Of a stretch of DNA of 64,000 nt, positions 6,711 through 32,374 are shown piece after piece. The translations under genes were made by a program, and so were the position numbers. A model generated the notes under the pieces. It saw nothing but the letters and a program-made list of their open reading frames with translations, did not search any database and was not told where the DNA came from. The stretch covers positions 558,001 to 622,000 of the forward strand of contig NZ_CP025057.1 of NCBI RefSeq assembly GCF_002813555.1, given 5' to 3'. The DNA is from Spiroplasma floricola 23-6 (GTDB lineage Bacteria > Bacillota_I > Bacilli_A > Mycoplasmatales > Mycoplasmataceae). Positions within the stretch are counted from its first letter, which is position 1. Each line of letters opens with the position of its first letter.

Positions 6711-6786
6711 ATTATATATAAAAAATATTTATTAAGTTTTTTACATATAATAAAATATTTTAGAAAAGAAAAAAAAGGAATAAAAT

Positions 6787-7689
6787 ATGAAAAAAATATT
6801 GTCAATTTTAACTACTTTTATATTAATAACACCAACTGTCTCATCTGTCTTTAGTTGTCAAAAACTAAATCCCTCAAAACCTGAAACTATTCCACCAGTT
6901 GAGAAAGTTTCAAGTAGAAAAACTATTTATATAGATAGTAATGGTTTAAAACAAGAAACTGAAGAGTTAGATTTTTTAAATATAGATGCCAAAGAAATTC
7001 TTGAATTAGGTTTTAGTAAATATGGAGAAACAGTTAGAAATTTTCAAGGAAATAAAGTTCCTAAAGAATTACCAAAGCAAGTAAATTCATTGTTTAGTTT
7101 TTTGGCTCTAAATAAAAATTTAATAATTGAGAATTTAGAAGATTGAGACACATCTAATATAACTTCTATGAGTCAAACTTTTCGTGATGCAACAAATTTT
7201 AATACAGATATATCAAAGTGAAATACATCAAATGTAACGGACATGAATGAAATGTTTTATGAATGTAAAAAAATAAACTTCTCAATTAAAAATTGAGATA
7301 CATCAAAAGTAAAAAGTATGAGTTCAATGTTTCAAGGCGCTAATATAGCTAAACAAGATTTATCAAATTGAAATACATCAAATGTAAAAAATATGAGTGG
7401 TATGTTTTTAAAAGCTCAAAATTTTAATCAAGATATTGGAAATTGAAATACATCAAATGTAACAAATATGAGGTCTATGTTTTATGAAGCACAAAGTTTT
7501 AATCAAGACATTGGAAATTGAAATACATCAAATGTAATGGATATGAATAGTATGTTTAAAAACTCACCAAAATTTAATCAAGATATTAGTAAATGAAACA
7601 TTAATAAAGTTACTTTACATGATGATTTTGATTTTACAGCAAATAGGCAATGAATAAAAGCATATAAACCTAAATTTGAAAGAAACTAA
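6787..7689 (+). CDS. Surface lipoprotein with DUF285 (BspA-type 25-residue) repeats
   Basis: 300 residues. Residues 1-24 are a lipoprotein signal (MKKILS..., lipobox SSVFSC, Cys24). Residues ~110-275 hold six tandem copies of a ~25-residue unit with the core W-(D/N)-TS-(N/K)-V-x-x-M-x-x-MF...FNxDI, the DUF285/bacterial surface protein repeat known in Mycoplasma and Listeria. All Trp codons in these repeats are TGA. Such repeats form leucine-rich-like solenoids exposed at the surface; adhesion is plausible. A TATAAT at 6746-6751 lies 36 bases before the start. Repeat number may vary by recombination because units at 7370-7530 are nearly identical in DNA. Confidence 0.88.
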
Positions 7690-21491: not shown

Positions 21492-23216
21492 ATGGTAAAA
21501 GTAAGACGTATTATCTCTTCAGGAGTAATAATTAAATTTACAATAAAATTAATTATTAAAGAGAAAACATATCTAGCTATAAATATTTTTTCACTATTAT
21601 TATCTGCTGCTTTTTTAACTTATTTTTTAACTATTAATAATAATGAAAAATTAGTTATAATGTTTGATTACTATGCTTTATTTTATTTATTTATTTTAAT
21701 GTTTATGTTGTGCTTAAGATTAGTATTTTTTATTTTTATAAACAAAAGAGATGATAAGACGTTACAAATTATAATCTCACATCAAGTCAAAAGAACTAAG
21801 TTATTTTTATTTCAAATAATAACTATTCTTATATTAGTCACTATAAACATAATTATTAATTACTTATTAATTAATACTATCTATAGTTTAATTAGATGAG
21901 ATATTAATTTTGTACTTTTAAGAATATCAAGTGTTTACTTCTTTTATGTTTTTATTAGTTGTATTTTTTTAATAAACTTTTTTTTACTAATGTCTTTAAT
22001 TGCCGGTCAACAATTTTTAGCAATTATTGCAACATTTATATTGTCATTGAGTTTCATAAGTAATTTACCATTACAATTTTTATTAAAAGATATTGAAAAT
22101 AAAAATATTACAATGCGAAGTAATAATTATGGTCAAACAACAATGAAAGTTAATGAGATGTATGATTCCTATAATCTTAGAAATCATGCACTTAATAAAA
22201 AAAATAAATATCCAAATTTAAGTTATGATATTTTTAATTTTTTTATAGAAAGTTCCTTTAGAACTTCTACATTCGAAGAAAACAAAAACAAAGAATTAAG
22301 AATTAATTTTTTAAAGAGTAAAGGCATCGTTGTAGAAAAACCTGTTGCAGTTGAATTAAAAACTCCAACTAGAATGGCAACTGCATATTCAAGATCATTG
22401 CTTAGTCCTTGAGTAGGATCTAATGTTACTTTTAAAACTTCTCTTAAATATAGATTTTTAAGTATTGAGGAGTTAAAAGAAAAATATCCAGATGATTTAT
22501 TTATAAAAGAATTTATTGAATTTACAAATTACATAAATAGTATTTATGCTAATTTTCAATCTCAGTTTTATTCTCTTTTTGAGCATTTTATTATTTTAGA
22601 TAATAATAATATTGCTACAAGTTATATTAAAAATGAGCAAACTGGACAAAGTCTAATATTTGATCCTGAATATTTAATTGATATTTATCAGAATTATTTC
22701 AATTTAAATCAAAACAAATTATCTCTTGACAAAACTACAGCACTAGATGTATTAATTACAGAAACAATTAATTTTCCTACAATGTTGAGTGTTAGAATTC
22801 TAGAAGACTATTTTTTAAGATACACAAGCAATCTTGTTATATTAGATGATAGTGTCATTATAACTACTTCAGCTGATTGAGAAGATTATAAAAATGTAAC
22901 TTCCTTGTATGGTGGGTTCTTTCATGCTAATCTTATTTCCAATATGTTACTTAACTATTCTTATTATGGGGGTAGAGCATTTGATGAAATATGATTTGAA
23001 CCTGATAGTACAAGTAAAATTTTCTTTAATAAACAAAACAATCTTTTTATAAGTCATATCTTTTATACTTTTAAATTAGATTCAACTTATAAAATAACTT
23101 ATGATACATACAATAATTATTTAGAACCATATTTCTATATATTAGTTCAAATAGTTATATGTACAGTTAACTTTTTTATAGCAAGAAGAAAATTCAATAG
23201 AATGGATTTGGCATAA
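21492..23216 (+). CDS. ABC transporter permease with large extracytoplasmic domain
   Basis: 574 residues: membrane segments at roughly 25-45, 60-80, 105-130, 145-185, then a long hydrophilic domain (~190-540) and a final segment (YFYILVQIVICTVNFFIA). The architecture is the same as the permease at 17082. No good ribosome site precedes the ATG at 21492, and the real start may be a few codons inside. The cognate ATPase gene starts at the next base after its stop but carries a nonsense mutation, so the transporter may no longer work. Family otherwise unrecognised. Confidence 0.7.
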
Positions 23217-24149
23217 ATGATAGATCAAAAACCTGTAATAACTTTTAAAGACTATTTAAAAAAATTTAAAAATTCTAAAATTGGACCACTAACTTTTGAA
23301 ATTCAAAGTAGTAAAATCACAGCATTACTTGGTAGTAGTGGTAGTGGAAAAACAGTTATTATAAATACACTTTTAGGAATAATAAGAAAATATAAAGGCG
23401 ATATAGTTTTAAACGATATAAATCGAAAGGCATATAGTTACTATAAAGCCAATTACAATGTTGGTTTTTATACACAAATGGATTTTTCGCTATATGAAGT
23501 TACAGCATATGAGTTTTTATTAGATATTTGTTTAATGCTTGGTCTTTATAAAAAAGAGTATAAAAAAAGAATTGAGTATTGAATGAAGTATTTTGATTTA
23601 TGAGAATCAAAAGATAAAAAAATTAAAAATTACTCATGGGGTATGAAAAATAGAATGAATTTAATTTTATGTTTCATAAAAGAACCTTCAATAATTATTT
23701 TAGATTAACCCGGAGCAAATTTGGACTCTTATTGAAGAGAAAAAATAAAAAAGATCTTAACTAAATTTAAAAATGAAGGAAAAACTATAATAATTACTGT
23801 TCATAATATTGATGAAATAAATGAGATAATTGATGATTATTTAATTATTGATAAAGGACAATTAGTTTTTTCAGGTTCAAAAGTTGAATTAGATATATAT
23901 TCAAAATATAAAATCTTTATTACAAAAAAATATGATGTAAATAAATTTAGACTTTTTTTGAAACAAAATAATATTAAATCATTTAAATATGATGAGGATG
24001 AAAACTCATTAGTAATATCAATTAGCAATTATAAAGAATTAAATTATATAGTTCTTTATTTAATAAAAAATAATTTACCTTTAAAGAATCTTATAAAATT
24101 GCCAATAAATATGGAATCAATTTATAAAGCTTTAGATGATAAAAATTAA
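23217..24149 (+). pseudogene. ABC ATPase with stop codon at the Walker B catalytic glutamate
   Basis: One continuous frame of 310 codons is interrupted by a single TAA at 23706-23708 (codon 164). Before it: Walker A GSSGSGKT (39-46) and an unusual signature (NYSWGMKNRMNL in place of LSGGQ). The stop falls in IIILD-stop-PGANLD, exactly where ABC ATPases have the catalytic Glu (LDEPxxNLD); GAA to TAA needs one base change. After it the frame still gives IIITVHNIDEINEIIDDYL (H-loop) and a ~110-residue C-terminal domain. The remainder is well conserved, so the mutation is young, or it is a sequencing error. Start ATG is adjacent to the permease stop. Confidence 0.8.
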
Positions 24150-24176
24150 AACAACTTTTTAGAAAAGAGGGTAAAA

Positions 24177-25931
24177 ATGAAAAAAATATTAACACTACTT
24201 TCAGGATTGACTATATTTTCAGCTCCAATAACAACTGTTATTTCTTGTAGAACAACTCCTGTTGATCCACCTCCAACTACTGAAGAAGACGATTATGCGA
24301 AGTTAATTCAGGAATTAACTCAAGATGTTAGAGATATTTATAATAATCATTATGCACAAGTAATTTCAAATCTAATTGGTGTTCCATCAACAGAAATTTC
24401 AAATGAATTTTTAAGAGAAGAAAATATAAAAGCAAATTCTGGTAAAGAGTCAGAAATAACTGATAAACAAAGACTTGCAATAACAAATGATTTTAATAAA
24501 ATCATGAGAACTAATGAGTTATTTGCAGAGTTTAGAAAAATGACAGAAAAAGATAAATATAAAATTTTATTTTACGATATAGAAACTATTTCTGAAATTA
24601 CAATTAATTTTGATACTTTAAAAATTAATAATGGACATATAGAAGAAAATAATATTTGAATGGGAAATGTTCAATTTGATTTTAAAGTTATAATTAATTA
24701 TAATAATGGAATTACTAATAATACAGAAGCTTTAACTTTAAATGAAACATTTGCATATTCTTCAACAGAAAGTGATGCTTTTAAACAAGGTACTGATAAC
24801 TTTCTTGAAAATATAACAAGAGATTATTATACTTCAAATGATGCTATCGAATATACAGATTTATTTTATAACAAAATAGCTCCAAATGGAGAACCTCAAG
24901 ATGCTTATTCAGGTTATTATGAAAATTATATTAAAGATTTTTATAATAAAGATGAAGAATTTAAAAATAATCTAACAAATTTTATTAGCAATAAATATTT
25001 TTCAAGTATTCAAAGTCTACCTTTAATTTTTTCACAAGATGGCATTTACCAAGAAATTAATAAAGTAAATAATATGGAAAAAAAATTAAATCCAATTGAA
25101 TATACTTATGATGTAAACAATACTCAAAATGATGCTTGATTTTTATTTAATTCTATATTTAAATTAGATCCAAATTCACTAGAAGCTTCTAACATAATAA
25201 ATGATAAATATTTACTTAAAAATAAAAATGACTTTGAAAGTGATTATTTAATAAAACAAGAAGAATTTTTAAAGGAAAAAGATATAGAACTTACTAGTGA
25301 AATTTCAGATCGTAAAGGATATAAAAATGCAATTTCAATGGATATAGTTTCTTTAAATGGACTTTCTATAAAAGTTGGAGGAGGTTCTTCATCAGTTTAT
25401 GAACACCGTTTACCAAAATTTGATTTACTTATTAATTATTCAGCAAATGATCAAACAGGAAAATTAGATGTTGATGATTTAAATACTTTTATAAAACATG
25501 AAATTAAATCATTTAGAAATATTTTTGGTATTGAAAGTTCACAAATGGGAGATCCTAAAAAATTAATGACTATAACTAATACTAATGAATTTTTTGATTC
25601 TTGAATTGGAGAATTTGTACAAAATAGTGCAGTTCCAAAAAAAGGTATAAATGTACTTCTTAATTTAACAGGATCTTTGAACACTATTACTAATAATATA
25701 ACTAATTTTGGAATTGGAATGAGAAGTAAATTACTATTAGAGTCAAAAAGTGATCAATATAGATTTGCTTTTGTAAATGGCGAAGGTCCGAAATTTTTAG
25801 AAGAAACTACAGAAAGTTATACTGGTTTTGCTACTCGTAAAAATTCAAACACTCCTATATCAGATGCTAAAAACATTTATTATTATTATGCAGATTGAGA
25901 TATAAAAGGAAAAAATTTAAGATTACTATAA
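24177..25931 (+). CDS. Lipoprotein of the KIYNNH paralogous family, probable premature stop
   Basis: 584 residues to the TAA at 25929-25931. Lipoprotein signal with Cys24 (TTVISC). The region DVRDIYNNHYAQVISNLIGV aligns with KIYNNHMKSEVIGNLIGL of the lipoprotein at 46114, and YKILFYDIETI / YSSTESDAFKQGTDN also match it. The same frame stays open beyond the stop (WNMNWINLLFDVTSMF...) to a TAA at 26049-26051, and that longer version would be 624 residues, matching the 623 of the paralogue. The early stop therefore looks like a recent nonsense mutation removing ~40 residues. It follows the broken ABC operon by 27 bases. Function unknown; surface-exposed. Confidence 0.8.
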
Positions 25932-26050
25932 TGAAATATGAACTGAATTAATTTACTTTTTGATGTTACTTCAATGTTTTCTTATGATAAAGTAAATAAT
26001 CCAAATATAGCTTGAATTGATTTTAATCGTATTCCTAGTAATATTAAATA

Positions 26051-26093
26051 AGGAAATAAAAAAGAATATTTAAAATATTCTTTTTTATTTCCT
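26051..26093. terminator. 43-bp near-perfect palindrome, bidirectional terminator
   Basis: A 21-bp arm (AGGAAATAAAAAAGAATATT...) with its exact complement and one central base, overlapping the distal lipoprotein stop. Internal A6/T6 blocks could act as tails in either direction. Confidence 0.75.
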
Positions 26094-26230
26094 TAAAAAT
26101 ATAAAAGTTTTTAAAATCTTTAAAATTTTATTCTTATAAGTAATTTTATTCATTTTTAAAAAAATAATAAAGAATATGTATTTTTTGTTATCATATATGT
26201 TATATTTAAATGAATTAAAGGAGAAGAAAA

Positions 26231-26941
26231 ATGCAAACATTAATTGACATTAAAAATGTATCAAAGAGCTTTGGCAAAAAAGTAATATTTAAAAACTTTG
26301 ATCTAAAAATTGAAGAAGGTCAAAGAGTTGCACTAATGGGAGCAAATGGTTGCGGTAAAACAACTTTAGTTGAAATGATAGCTCAATTTAGTAAGCCTGA
26401 TTCAGGAGATATCAAAATCAATTTAACTGAAAATATTAAACAAGAAATAGGAATTCAATTACAAGAAGGAAATTGACCTACTGGTATAACAGCACAAAAT
26501 ATGTTAGATTTTTATAAATTTGTTTACCCAAAATTTACAAAAGAATGAGAAACTAAATTAAAGGAAGTTTTTGAAATTGATGAGTTTATAAACAGACCTC
26601 TTAAAAAATTAAGTGGTGGACAAAGACAACGATTTAATGCTATGATATCAATTATGAACAATCCAAAAATAATAATTCTTGATGAATTAACAACAGGATT
26701 GGATATGGAATTACAGTTTAAAATTATTGATTTTTTTAAAAAAAATACAAAAGAATTTAAACAAACTTTATTGCTAGTTTCACATCATCCTGAAGAAGTT
26801 GAAGAAATGTGCAATAGACTAATAATTATTAAAGATAGTAAAATTTGATATGATGATTCAGTTGAAAATACAGTTAAAAAATATGAATCTGTAAGAAAAT
26901 TAATGAATAAATTCTTTAAAGGAGAGAAATATAATGACTAA
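26231..26941 (+). CDS. ABC-2 type transporter, ATP-binding protein
   Basis: 236 residues with Walker A GANGCGKTT (37-45), signature LSGGQRQR, Walker B IIILDELTTGLD and H-loop LVSHHPEE; all catalytic residues are intact. It is a paralogue of the ATPase at 1213 (both have IGIQ(F/L)QEG(F/N)WP after Walker A). AAAGGAGAAG lies 6 bases before the ATG. The C-terminus overlaps the permease gene by 8 bases. Exported substrate unknown. Confidence 0.92.
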
Positions 26942-27842
26942 AACTGAAAAGAAAAATAAATTTGAAGTTAAAAAACAAATTAGTATTTTTAATAACTTAT
27001 CATTATTACTTTATAAATCTTTTATAAAAGAACCAAAATCAATAATTTTTATGATTTTTGTTCCAATATTTTTTAATATTATGTTTTTCTTTATAATGGG
27101 AGCTAAAATTCAAGGAGAAAAATATGGTGCATTATTTGGTTATACATTATTACCTTGTTTAACATGCTTAACTTTATTAGCTCCTGCTGTTGTTGAATGA
27201 AAAAACTCTGTATTTCTAAAAAGAATTGATATTACAGGAATTAGAAAATCAATGTTTATTGGAGCTCTTTGATTTGTTTATCTAATTGCGGGAATAGTAG
27301 CTTTCTTTTTAATGATGATATTTAATTTAATTTTTTCACAAATACATAAATTAGTTTCATCAAGTGATGCATTAAGCTTTGCACAACTTTTAGGAAAAGT
27401 AAATTGAGGTTATATGCTATTGTCTATGATTTTAATTACATTAACATCAATTGCTCTTGCAACATTTTTTGGTGGACTATTTAGTTCAGTTGGTTCAATG
27501 CAAGGAATGATAATGATGATATATTTCTTTAGTATTTTCTTATCAGGAATAATGTTACCTCCAGAAGCATTTGAATCAAGTAAAGGAATGATAATCTTTA
27601 CATATTTTATACCTCATAAGTATGGTGTATTCTTATTTTTATATGCAACAAGAGGTTGAAGTGATAAAGGATGAGAAAGTGGATTTAATAATCACTATAA
27701 AAATCCAATGCAACCAATTTCAGAAGAGTTTATTGGAAAAGATTTTACAGCAACATGACAGCCAATACTTGGAGCAGTATTAATACTTGCTGCAATATTT
27801 GCACTTACAACATTTACTTTTAAATGATCAGCTAAAAAATAA
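26934..27842 (+). CDS. ABC-2 type transporter, permease
   Basis: 302 residues with six hydrophobic segments and the coupling block VEWKNSVFLKRI shared with the permease at 1907. It starts inside the ATPase gene (8-base overlap) behind AAAGGAGAG. The gene pair at 1213-2800 and this one share order, overlap length and protein motifs, so they are duplicated ABC-2 exporters that have diverged. A hairpin terminator ends the operon. Confidence 0.9.
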
Positions 27843-27967: not shown

Positions 27968-30691
27968 ATGGAAAATGATAAATTTTTTACAAATAGAAAT
28001 CAACAAGAGCTTTTAAATGAAATTCAAAATGAAATTAAAACTTCTGATGAAGTCTATTTAATTTATCCATTTATTTCTAAAACAATATTAAATAAAATAT
28101 CTCTATGTTTTGACTATTGCTTAGAAAATAATATTCCAATAAAAATTATCTCAACAACTTTTGATGATTTATCTCAGTTTAATAATTTGAATGAACTGAA
28201 GTTAATTGTTCAAAAGTATAAAAACATTCAAATTAAAATCGAAGATAATATGGAAAGAAATAGTGAAAGAATTCATATTAAAGCTTCTATTTTTAAAAGA
28301 AAAACTTTACCAGATAGTGCAATTATGGGATCTTCAAATCTAACTTATAAAGGTATGATAAGTGGAAGAGAATGAAATATAAAAATTACTTCTAAAAATG
28401 AAAATGACTTAGTTCAACAAATGATTCAAGAATTTGATAATTTATGAAATGAAGATTTTGTTGATTTCTCAATTGCAAAAGATAGAGATGATCTTATTGA
28501 AAGAATTAAACAAAATCAATTGGTAAAAAATCAAGTAGAGTTATCAAATCAAATTCAATTTAGCAAAAAATACTTATATAAGTTTCAAAAAGAGATTATT
28601 GAGAAACTAAAATATCGAAGATATATCGGGAAAACTAAAAATTTAATTATTATGGCAACAGGAACAGGTAAAACTTTAGTGTCTGCTTTTGACTATAAAA
28701 ATCAAAGACAAAGTGCTAAAAATAATTTAAGTATATTATTTTTAGCACATCAAAAAGAAATTATAGATCAAGCAATTAAAACTTATCGACAAGTTTTAGA
28801 AGAACAAAATTTTGGTGAAGTACTTTATGATGGTCAAATAATAGCAGATAAACCCAAACATTTATTTGCAACGATTCAATCACTTTCAAACAGATTAAAT
28901 AATTTTGATAAAGATCACTTTGATTTAATTATTTTTGATGAAGCACATCATTTAGCTGCTAACTCTTTTGATAAAGTTTTTAATTACTTTAATCCAAAAC
29001 AAGTTATTGGTTTGACAGCAACTCCTGAAAGAGAAGATGGCAAAGATATTAAACAATACTTTGATAATGAATTTGCATCAGAATTAAGACTTTGAGATGC
29101 AATTAATCAAAAACTTTTATGTCCTTTTGATTACTACTGTATTGATGATACATCAACAAATTTGCAAGGAATTGATTTAAATTCAGACAAAGATATTTTT
29201 AAAGTAGTTAATACAGATTCAAGAAATGAATTATTATTTAAAACAATTGAAAAGTATTTAGGTATTTATGCAAGACCAACTGCTTTAATTTTTTGTACAA
29301 CAATTGATCATGCAAAGATTATTGCAAATTTTTTAGTTCAAAAAGGATTAAAAGCAGAAGCATTTACTTCTGAAAATAATAAAGAAAGAAATAGAATTTT
29401 GCATGAATTTAAAATTGGAAGAATTAATTATCTTTGTGTTGTAAATATTTTTAATGAGGGAATTGATATTCCTGAAATTAACACAATAATTTTGTTAAGA
29501 CCAACAAGTTCAAAAACAGTTTATTTACAACAATTGGGAAGGGGTTTAAGAAAAATAGAGTTAAAAAATAAACTTGAAGTTTATGATTTAATTTCTAACA
29601 TAGATTCCAAGTATGATATAACTTTGGGCATAAGGAATTTATTCAATCCAAATATTATTGGAACTAATTTTATTTCTACAAAAGAAGGTTTACCTTATGA
29701 TTCTACAATTACTTTAGAAAAAAATACAAAAGAAATTATTTTAAAAAGTTTAAAAAAATGATTTGGAAATAAAGATATTATTAGAAAACAAGTTATTCAA
29801 TATTATAAAAAATATCAAGATTTTGCTCTAGAGAAAATACTTCAAGATTATGAAATCAGTTTATTAGATTTTTATAATAAGTTAGATGAATTATTCTTGA
29901 AGGTAGGAAAAGAAATAAGAATTTATGATAAAAATGAAAACGATACAAATAGAAATAAGAATATATTAAAGCAATTTATTTTTTTAGATAATTTTAAAAT
30001 AATAAATTATTTTTATAATAGATTAAGAAACAATATTTCAAAAGAAGAAATTGATTTAGATTTGGATAATCTATTAATGACTTCGTTTTTATATGAAATA
30101 ACAAGTATGGAGAAATTCTTAACTATTTATCCAAATTATTTAGAAATTGAAGATTTAGTACAATATTTTATTAATACAAATAGATTAATTGTTGATGAAT
30201 TGGCAATGATTTTAAAATACAAATTAGAAAAAGAAACATTGGTAATTACAGAAAGTACTGAAAAAATGTTAACAATAGATTCAACATATACAGTAAAACA
30301 AGCTCTTGCAGCAGTGGGAAGAACAAATTTTTTACATTATAGAGAAGAGTTAAAAGTTTTGACTTTTCAAGCAGGTTATTTAACATTTTTCAAAACAAAA
30401 CAAATTATTTTGGCTGATGAAGATGGTAATGGATATGGAAAACTAACTAAATATGATGAATTAAGTAAGAAGTTTTATTGATCATTGCCTGAAAAAATGA
30501 CAATAAATCATAAAATTATTGAAGACTTTAATAATAAAAATATAGTAAAGTACTTATTTATTCACGATAAACAAAATTATGGTAATAAAAATATGTTTTT
30601 AAAGCTTTATAAATTTAGTGGAATAGGAAAGTTTGTAAAAATGAATACAGAACAATATCTAACTGTAGAATTTGATATAGAAAATAACTAA
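27968..30691 (+). CDS. PLD-like nuclease domain - SF2 helicase - DUF3427 protein
   Basis: 907 residues. Residues ~1-170 form a phospholipase-D-like domain with RIHIKASIFK (HxK) and IMGSSNLTYKG. Residues ~200-400 are the first helicase domain: ATGTGKT (Walker A), IIFDEAHH (DEAH), GLTATPERED (motif III). Residues ~430-560 are the second: IFCTTIDHAKIIA, VNIFNEGIDIPE, QQLGRGLRK (motif VI). The C-terminal ~300 residues, ending with the VKQALAAVGR and TYDEL-like TKYDELSKKFYW part, match the DUF3427 tail of this family. Proteins of this layout occur in mobile or defence contexts; a DNA-processing or phage-defence role is inferred, not shown. It stands alone, with terminators on both sides. AAGAAAAGAGAT precedes the ATG. 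Confidence 0.88.
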
Positions 30692-30778
30692 ATATAAAAT
30701 TTGAATTTAATATGAAACATTTTTAGGAGATTTCTATTAAATTAGTAAAATATAAATAAGCATATTAATTAAAACTGG

Positions 30779-30811
30779 ACATATTCTATATTTAATAGAG
30801 TATGTTTTTTT
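30779..30811 (+). terminator. Intrinsic terminator
   Basis: ACATATTCT / AGAGTATGT stem (one G-U) with a 9-nt loop and 7 T, ~90 bases after the helicase gene. Confidence 0.75.
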
Positions 30812-30962
30812 ATGATTAATTTTTAATTATTGTGTTTATAAAGTTAGTACAAACAAAAATAAATAATTTGAAAGGGTGTCAAAAAATAAAAAAGTGTGTC
30901 ATTTTAAGAAATCCCTAATTTTGTTTATCCTTTTTTGATAATGTTATTTCAGAGGTGATTGT

Positions 30963-31538
30963 ATGAATTTAAAAACTAAAATAAAAATTAATTATGGTAT
31001 ATTAATCTCTTTAGTTATATCATTATTAATTAATATACTCTTAATTCTAATTGTTTATGTCTTTGGCAATATTAAATTTAAAAGTAATGATATTGTGTAT
31101 ACAATATCATTATTTAGTTATCTTAAAAAAACACCAAGCTTTTTAATTAGTGAATTATTTAAAACGTGTCTTTACATTTGACTTATATATAAAATAATAA
31201 AATGTATTAAAACTGATAATAACTTTAGTTTTAAAATATGAGTCTACATCTTAATAATAATATTTGAAATTGCTCCTCATATACAGCATTTTAATTTATT
31301 TAGTAGCTCATTTCTTGAAAAAAAATATGATCAGTTTGTTCTTTTGAATCCTGATATAAGCATCACTAAAGATCTTTTTTTAACTCTTGCCAAAACAAGA
31401 CTAGTATTTTTTTATGCTATATCAACTATATCAGTATTTTCTCTAGTTTTTCGCTTTTCTTTATATACAGTTTATATATTGTATAATATAAAGAAAAGAA
31501 GGGAATTAAAGAAAGTTGATGAAAATCAATTACATTAA
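30963..31538 (+). CDS. Unknown multi-pass membrane protein, partner of the membrane AraC regulator
   Basis: 191 residues, not recognised. Five or so hydrophobic segments (about 11-35, 40-60, 62-78, 84-102, 128-160) are separated by short loops; the C-terminus (YNIKKRRELKKVDENQLH) is basic and cytoplasmic by the positive-inside rule. A strong AGAGGTGATT lies 4-5 bases before the ATG, and a GATAAT -10-like box lies near 30938. Its end overlaps the next gene by 20 bases, so the two proteins are made together and may act as a sensor pair. There is no similarity I can name. Confidence 0.7.
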
Positions 31539-32334
31539 TTTATTTATTCATAATATTATAAATAGAATTGTTTTTTTAATAATTTTATTTTTCTTTTTAT
31601 TTTTACTAACAAACTCATTAATTATTATTTACACATTTTTTCCAATTATATTTTTGCTAAGTTTAGGTTTACTTTTTACAATACTTTATAAGAGAAAAAA
31701 AGTGTCTATTAAGTTTTTATACTTTTGTTTTATTCCTTTATTTCCATATAAAATTTTTATTAAAATTGTGTTTTTTAATAAAAATCATGATAATTATTTT
31801 GAGAGTTTTAGAATAAAATTATTCCTAAGACAAGTATCAGCACTATTATCTAACTTAGCTATTTTTATTGTAATTTTGTGCTTTTCAACATATAATTTGA
31901 AATATTGAATTCTAATTTCTATGTCATTGTGTTGTGTTATTGTACAAATTGTATTTTTTTCAATTACTGTATATTCAATAAAAAATAAAGTTAATGTAGC
32001 TCCTTTAAAATTTTTTTATAAAATGTTTTCTCATAATTCTGATAAAAGACATAAAAGTTTTAAAAGTGAAATAATAAGTGAAATAGATAATAATAATGGC
32101 ATTTTAACTTATAAAGAATTAAACACTAAATTTTCTATTTCTTTAAAAACTTTAAATAATATAGTTATTGAATTTAAAAATACAAACTTTAAAACATATT
32201 CAATACAACTTAAAATGGAATTTGCTAAAAGTCTATATCAAGAAGCAAATTATTCAACAAAACAAATAGCTGAAAAGTGTGGTTATTTGTCAAAGTCTTC
32301 TTTTTTAAAGGCATATAACAGTTATTACAAGTAA
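31519..32334 (+). CDS. Membrane-embedded AraC-type transcriptional regulator
   Basis: 271 residues. The N-terminal ~150 residues hold about five hydrophobic segments (IVFLIILFFFLFLL, IIFLLSLGLLFTIL, LYFCFIPLFPYKIF, LLSNLAIFIVILCF, LISMSLCCVIVQIVFF). After a basic linker, residues ~180-271 form an AraC/XylS DNA-binding domain: first HTH ITYKELNTKFSISLKTLNNI, linking helix LKMEFAKSLYQEA, second HTH NYSTKQIAEKCGYLSKSSFL, ending in KAYNSYYK, the usual AraC terminus. A regulator anchored in the membrane would sense an external or membrane signal directly. The ATG at 31519 overlaps the upstream gene. Target genes unknown. Confidence 0.8.
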
Positions 32335-32345
32335 AATAATGAATT

Positions 32346-32374
32346 TAAAAAATCACTATAAAAGTGATTTTTTT
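32346..32374. terminator. Bidirectional intrinsic terminator
   Basis: AAAAAATCACT / AGTGATTTTTTT hairpin with a 5-nt loop between two converging genes (AraC-type gene and SDR). Confidence 0.85.

Follow-up and report, generated by a model that had tools for sequence, protein, structure and literature searches.

A two-gene operon of Spiroplasma floricola 23-6 was composed of a gene for a small membrane protein (gene A) and an overlapping gene for a membrane-integrated AraC-type regulator (gene B); on balance, gene B probably activates its own promoter through a direct repeat of GTGTCA, with gene A restraining it until a membrane signal arrives. Gene structure, topology, the AraC domain, the conservation of pair and repeat, and the uniqueness of the repeat at the promoter are computed results.

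Organization of the two-gene locus

The host genome was a single contig of 1,284,130 bases (1.28 Mb; G000), and ORFs were read with genetic code 4 (TGA=Trp). Within the window (the whole stretch of 64,000 nucleotides analysed, positions 558,001 to 622,000 of contig NZ_CP025057.1), the locus displayed the following features:

30777..30812, plus strand, terminator-like hairpin and T-run upstream of the pair (fold -12.2 kcal/mol, z -4.9)
30876..30901, plus strand, candidate operator, a direct repeat of GTGTCA (30876-30881) and GTGTCA (30896-30901), 20 bp start to start
30937..30942, plus strand, possible -10 box GATAAT (read by eye, weak; no good -35)
30951..30959, plus strand, Shine-Dalgarno-like AGAGGTGAT ahead of gene A (sequence)
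30963..31538, plus strand, gene A, predicted four-helix membrane protein of 191 aa with ATG start (model, hydropathy; relatives P0005 in G013, a decayed copy in G012, and P0003 in G030)
31519..32334, plus strand, gene B, predicted membrane-integrated AraC-type regulator of 271 aa from ATG, an alternative TTG start one codon earlier being possible (HTH_18, model, hydropathy; relative P0004 in G030)
31567..31965, plus strand, predicted four-helix membrane part of gene B, residues about 17-149 (hydropathy and positive-inside count, two species)
32047..32331, plus strand, two-HTH AraC-type DNA-binding domain of gene B, residues 177-271 (HTH_18, model helices)
32347..32373, plus strand, terminator-like hairpin at the 3' end of the two-gene operon (fold -9.7 kcal/mol, z -3.87)

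The overlap of genes A and B amounted to exactly 20 bases by ORF coordinates under code 4, as the first-pass annotation of this DNA had it. The hairpin at 30777-30812 suggests that the operon is isolated from the preceding gene; it was absent from the list of the consensus scan, which missed it because its stems are A+T-rich. A second pair-bearing genome of the same genus (G030) kept the same gene order, namely the gene of a small four-helix membrane protein (P0003) followed by that of a gene B relative (P0004) with a one-base overlap, and this pair was also preceded by the same kind of hairpin (z -4.35). Terminator-like hairpins flanked the pair on both sides in both genomes (three of the four stood well outside the shuffled range, and the fourth had z -2), and the pair is therefore a self-contained operon.

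The neighbours of the pair were different in the two genomes: (i) SDR and restriction-like helicase genes in the window and (ii) csoR-like, copper-chaperone-like, and P-type-ATPase-like genes in G030; therefore, either the unit or its surroundings moved. The first-pass annotation had staked its reading on the two genes being conserved together, and they were indeed found together in a second genome at an unrelated place, this conservation being limited to two genomes. Directly upstream of the pair in the window, 27968-30691 encoded a large protein that combined a PLD-like nuclease domain with ResIII helicase and helicase C-terminal domains and resembled type IV methyl-directed restriction enzymes (PADLOC mREase_IV, E 3e-102), while 21492-27842 contained genes for two large proteins without Pfam match (574 and 584 aa) and then an ABC ATPase and an ABC-2 permease, all on the same strand. 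The copper-related cluster of G030 (L014 5848-8597) came after the pair, with a terminator-like hairpin in between.

The AraC-type regulator and its membrane partner

The two-HTH AraC domain ascribed to the second protein by the first-pass annotation proved real: gene B scored 36.2 bits against Pfam HTH_18 (cut-off 33.6), the only Pfam family above cut-off, and P0004 scored 54.7 bits. Both HTH motifs were present in the single-sequence AlphaFold2 model of gene B, their helices lying at residues 177-270 (pLDDT about 79-88) and being joined by a long helix; the models of genes A and B were all single-sequence, with membrane parts of low confidence. The best Foldseek matches of the gene B model were Rns, GadX, ToxT, and YesN, with weak E-values (0.018 and up) because the model was single-sequence, and by sequence, too, members of the AraC family (Rns, YesN, and GadX among them) matched best. 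VIA-align rows that outranked the AraC chains seem to reflect helices arranged alike by chance and were set aside. HTH_18 was covered at profile positions 3-70 of 80 by gene B and 3-69 of 80 by P0004; the last ten or so positions were missing in both species, and this is therefore a conserved end and no truncation.

The number of helices ahead of this domain matters, because an odd count with the N-terminus inside would place the HTH motifs outside. Hydropathy with charge counts gave gene B helices at about 19-37, 36-54, 106-124, and 131-149, with the predicted positively charged inner side formed by the N-terminus, the 55-105 loop, and the C-terminal domain, and P0004 displayed the same four helices with no ambiguity. 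A candidate fifth segment (66-84) is probably an interfacial loop with a conserved FPY motif, because the P0004 stretch aligned with it was much more polar. The membrane segments of the second protein, earlier put at about five, are thus best read as four in this two-species comparison. From the four helices and the charge distribution, the AraC domain of gene B is predicted to be on the cytoplasmic side; an HTH outside the membrane, named beforehand as fatal to the signalling idea, was predicted in neither species.

Gene B was the sole HTH_18 protein detected by Pfam in its 1.28-Mb genome, and the domain was found in five of the 60 genomes of the family. The family HTH_18 proteins outside the two pair loci were soluble and looked Ada-type by sequence (zinc-binding plus AraC), the two scanned by Pfam being both confirmed as Ada-type; since they are soluble, a membrane-borne AraC protein, as predicted here, is unusual among these genomes. 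Compared to these Ada-type relatives from other Spiroplasma-like genomes, gene B shares the two-HTH AraC domain, but it has four predicted membrane helices in place of the ligand domain, while they have an Ada zinc-binding domain and no helices. Four such Ada-type proteins were located at L015 5900-6460, L016 5653-6195, L017 5673-6215, and L018 6449-7000; they had zinc-binding and AraC HTH parts with no methyltransferase domain in the same frame (Pfam: L015 and L018), and three of the four genes directly followed a NAD-binding-like gene. Multi-helix AraC proteins are likely to occur in other phyla (Bacteroidota).

The first protein, annotated earlier as an unknown multi-pass protein, keeps that description: gene A had no family above cut-off in Pfam, NCBIfam, or PHROG, and its single-sequence model contained four helices (11-36, 58-84, 90-112, and 136-190). 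Its ends were basic, both termini were predicted inside, and an outer loop was placed at about 108-146. The Foldseek search with the gene A model gave no match. Several candidate assignments were rejected: (i) EXPERA for gene A (E 0.022) and CitMHS for its relative (E 0.02) were below cut-off and mutually inconsistent; (ii) DUF2975 (PF11188) had no Pfam match to gene A, the PF11188 search of G000, G030, G012, and G013 returned nothing, and, while the resemblance at the helix 2-3 junction looked convincing on inspection and outscored 198 of 200 block shuffles, hhalign gave 22.2 versus 21.5 for an unrelated membrane protein of the same window, so this assignment was dropped; and (iii) PHROG 1450 and phage tblastn leads led only to ordinary soluble AraC or response-regulator proteins. 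BLAST of gene A against P0003 gave no similarity; the profile comparison of the two gave a collinear match over 68 columns, with a score that none of 200 block shuffles and none of the unrelated membrane segments tried could reach.

Occurrence of the pair and of its direct repeat

P0004 was 38% identical to gene B over its full length, with 51% identity in the DNA-binding half and 32% in the membrane half, and the second recognition helix KSSFLKAY was identical in both. No further gene B relatives were found in other genomes of the order (320 searched, E 1e-8). Class-wide matches covered the AraC domain alone, and the eight of 10 fetched matches that were checkable had no or one predicted helix each. 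A weak match in G011 (E 0.004) was without HTH and was taken as chance. Scans of genome, viral, and plasmid contigs gave no other relatives, near relatives being possibly excluded from these collections. For gene A, a relative with 42-43% identity (P0005) was found in G013, a genome with no AraC domain detected; therefore, gene A is not strictly tied to gene B, and it may have a function of its own, as judged from this sequence distribution. P0005 stood alone, downstream of an inorganic-pyrophosphatase-like gene (L020 6563-7111), and the same place in G012 (L021, about 6717-7282) contained a decayed gene A relative with many stops, which by its sequence appears to be in the course of loss.

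The GTGTCA motif was first spotted by eye and later tested in the second species and in whole genomes. Allowing at most one mismatch, the operator pattern had one match in the window (0.05 expected), and GTGTCA also stood twice ahead of the G030 pair, at a spacing of 21 bp and in DNA that otherwise aligned poorly between the two loci. The exact pattern GTGTCA-N13..16-GTGTCA occurred once in the whole genome of G000 and once in that of G030, both times at the promoter of the pair; of the 58 other family genomes, 56 had none and two had one each, both at the looser 22 bp spacing, a frequency at chance level. No other hexamer recurred at a distance of 18-24 bp in both upstream regions, and none of 4000 simulated sequence pairs shared such a repeat of a hexamer with at least three G/C. 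One-mismatch sites elsewhere were at chance level and equally frequent in genomes without the pair, and the one common to G000 and G030 lay inside the dnaK gene; these were rejected as operators.

The promoter itself was weakly assigned: the -10 candidate GATAAT, which the promoter scan did not list, stood 41 nt after the start of the proximal repeat, and its counterpart in G030, TATTAT, stood at 43 nt. AraC/XylS regulators bind half-sites in direct repeat at a distance of about two helical turns, and the conserved repeat at this promoter, spaced 20/21 bp, is a candidate for such a pair of sites. The repeat could instead serve another regulator, or gene B could act on it as a repressor.

Two readings of the locus bear directly on these distributions. 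A decaying or non-functional acquisition, whose patchy occurrence and fast divergence would come from drift, could point to the presence of the pair in two of the 320 genomes of the order and to the related pseudogene of G012; nevertheless, both frames were intact in both genomes, the 51% identity of the DNA-binding half went with a largely identical recognition helix, and the operator was conserved amid poorly alignable upstream DNA, so this reading is very improbable. In the second, gene B alone would be a one-component sensor (four helices plus HTH, as in BcrR) that represses or activates the operon, and gene A would be an effector made in response. The sole detectable exact operator lies at the operon's own promoter, leaving gene A as the only clear output besides gene B, and gene A has a relative unaccompanied by the regulator; against this, degenerate sites elsewhere could escape so strict a search for exact matches, and the 20-base overlap and conserved order suggest a stoichiometric complex. 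By analogy with BcrR, self-sensing by gene B alone is the main rival to restraint by gene A, and we regard it as rather unlikely.

Relation to known membrane regulators

The comparison was applied to four kinds of systems: LytTR Regulatory Systems (LRS), transmembrane transcription regulators (TTRs), DUF2975 plus Xre pairs, and the Ada-type proteins described above. LRS, such as HdrRM and BrsRM of Streptococcus mutans, are two-gene operons composed of a regulator and a multi-helix membrane protein, with autoactivation and with direct repeats (spacers of 11-13 bp) immediately ahead of the promoter; the membrane protein silences the regulator, and its inactivation leads to positive feedback through the repeats (PMC6193735). 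In the LRS-like operons of Bacteroides, the membrane gene precedes that of a multi-helix regulator, and the membrane proteins carry NfeD-like and DUF2154 domains (PMC6193735). The text of that paper does not mention Mollicutes or Tenericutes (PMC6193735). The pair of S. floricola shared with LRS the two-gene operon with a multi-helix membrane protein lacking a large domain, and the direct repeats adjoining the weakly assigned promoter; like the Bacteroides operons, it had the membrane gene first and a regulator with several helices before its DNA-binding domain. Unlike LRS, gene B had an AraC-type domain and no LytTR domain was found (HTH_18 being the sole Pfam family above cut-off), the order was the reverse of that in S. 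mutans (regulator gene first, membrane gene second), and gene A, unlike the membrane proteins of the Bacteroides operons, had no family match. Because it lacks the LytTR domain and has a different gene order, the pair is not an LRS by membership, yet by analogy its design appears suited to the same way of working. The open-licence papers searched contained no report of an AraC-based LRS version or of this locus.

As predicted from sequence, gene B fits the TTR definition (PMC10269533) of a DNA-binding domain and membrane helices on one polypeptide, with that domain facing the cytoplasm. The TTRs BcrR, CadC, ToxR, and HigX each unite a sensor and a DNA-binding domain in a single membrane protein (PMC10269533, PMC13384398). 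BcrR and HigX have four helices each, as gene B has, and BcrR is a four-helix membrane regulator that senses alone (PMC13384398). Unlike in these four TTRs, the DNA-binding domain of gene B is C-terminal and AraC-type, and a partner gene overlaps. As the earlier remark had it, solubility is the rule for AraC proteins, but transcription regulators integrated into the membrane form a common class (PMC10269533). DUF2975 plus small Xre (YozG-type) pairs of Bacilli, an arrangement seen in many loci, likewise encode a four-helix membrane protein beside a DNA-binding protein, but their regulator is a soluble Xre protein of about 70 aa, and the homology of gene A to DUF2975 was not above background.

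The TTRs also bear on the role of gene A, which could be a co-receptor or stabiliser required for the activity of gene B, with the same operon and operator. Some membrane regulators do have cocomponents, such as ToxS for ToxR and TcpH for TcpP (PMC10269533), HigX and BcrR are active only with their membrane part (PMC13384398), and the outer loops of gene A, by predicted topology, are long enough for ligand contact; nevertheless, the known associated proteins are mostly differently built, and LRS operons are closer in promoter and helix count, which leaves a co-receptor role with a low probability. The closest architectural precedent, LRS, suggests by analogy that gene A is an inhibitor.

Restraint of gene B by gene A hence stays the preferred reading, and it would proceed as follows: (i) gene B would bind both copies of GTGTCA, each serving as one AraC half-site at a distance of two helical turns from the other; (ii) from these repeats just upstream of its own promoter, it would activate the operon in positive feedback; (iii) gene A, as do the inhibitors of LRS, would hold gene B in check in the membrane; and (iv) a membrane-borne signal would relieve this restraint. 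Gene B is cast as activator and gene A as restrainer because the plan matches LRS and the order of the Bacteroides LRS-like operons. Against this reading stand the presence of the pair in two genomes only, the solitary gene A relative of G013, and the weak -35/-10 elements. The one-step transmembrane signalling proposed by the first-pass annotation draws support from the predicted cytoplasmic AraC domain, the overlapping genes, the pair in a second genome, and the repeat at the operon's own promoter; its transporter partner does not, as nothing points to a transporter role of gene A.

A further-reaching proposal, which we put forward tentatively and hold to be possible rather than probable, is that the locus is an AraC-based counterpart of LRS, that is, a self-amplifying membrane switch with its own promoter as the only operator, in which sensor, regulator, and output would be the same two membrane proteins and which a wall-less bacterium with a reduced genome would have kept. 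The idea is open to simple testing, since the predicted operator is a short, exact sequence with no second copy in the genome. If true, LRS-style sensing, with a membrane partner and a self-activating regulator on direct repeats, would not be tied to the LytTR domain, and this compact locus would serve as a model of how a regulator anchored in the membrane gains access to DNA; the LRS plan would have emerged, or been reassembled, around an AraC domain in organisms that have lost the majority of their regulators.
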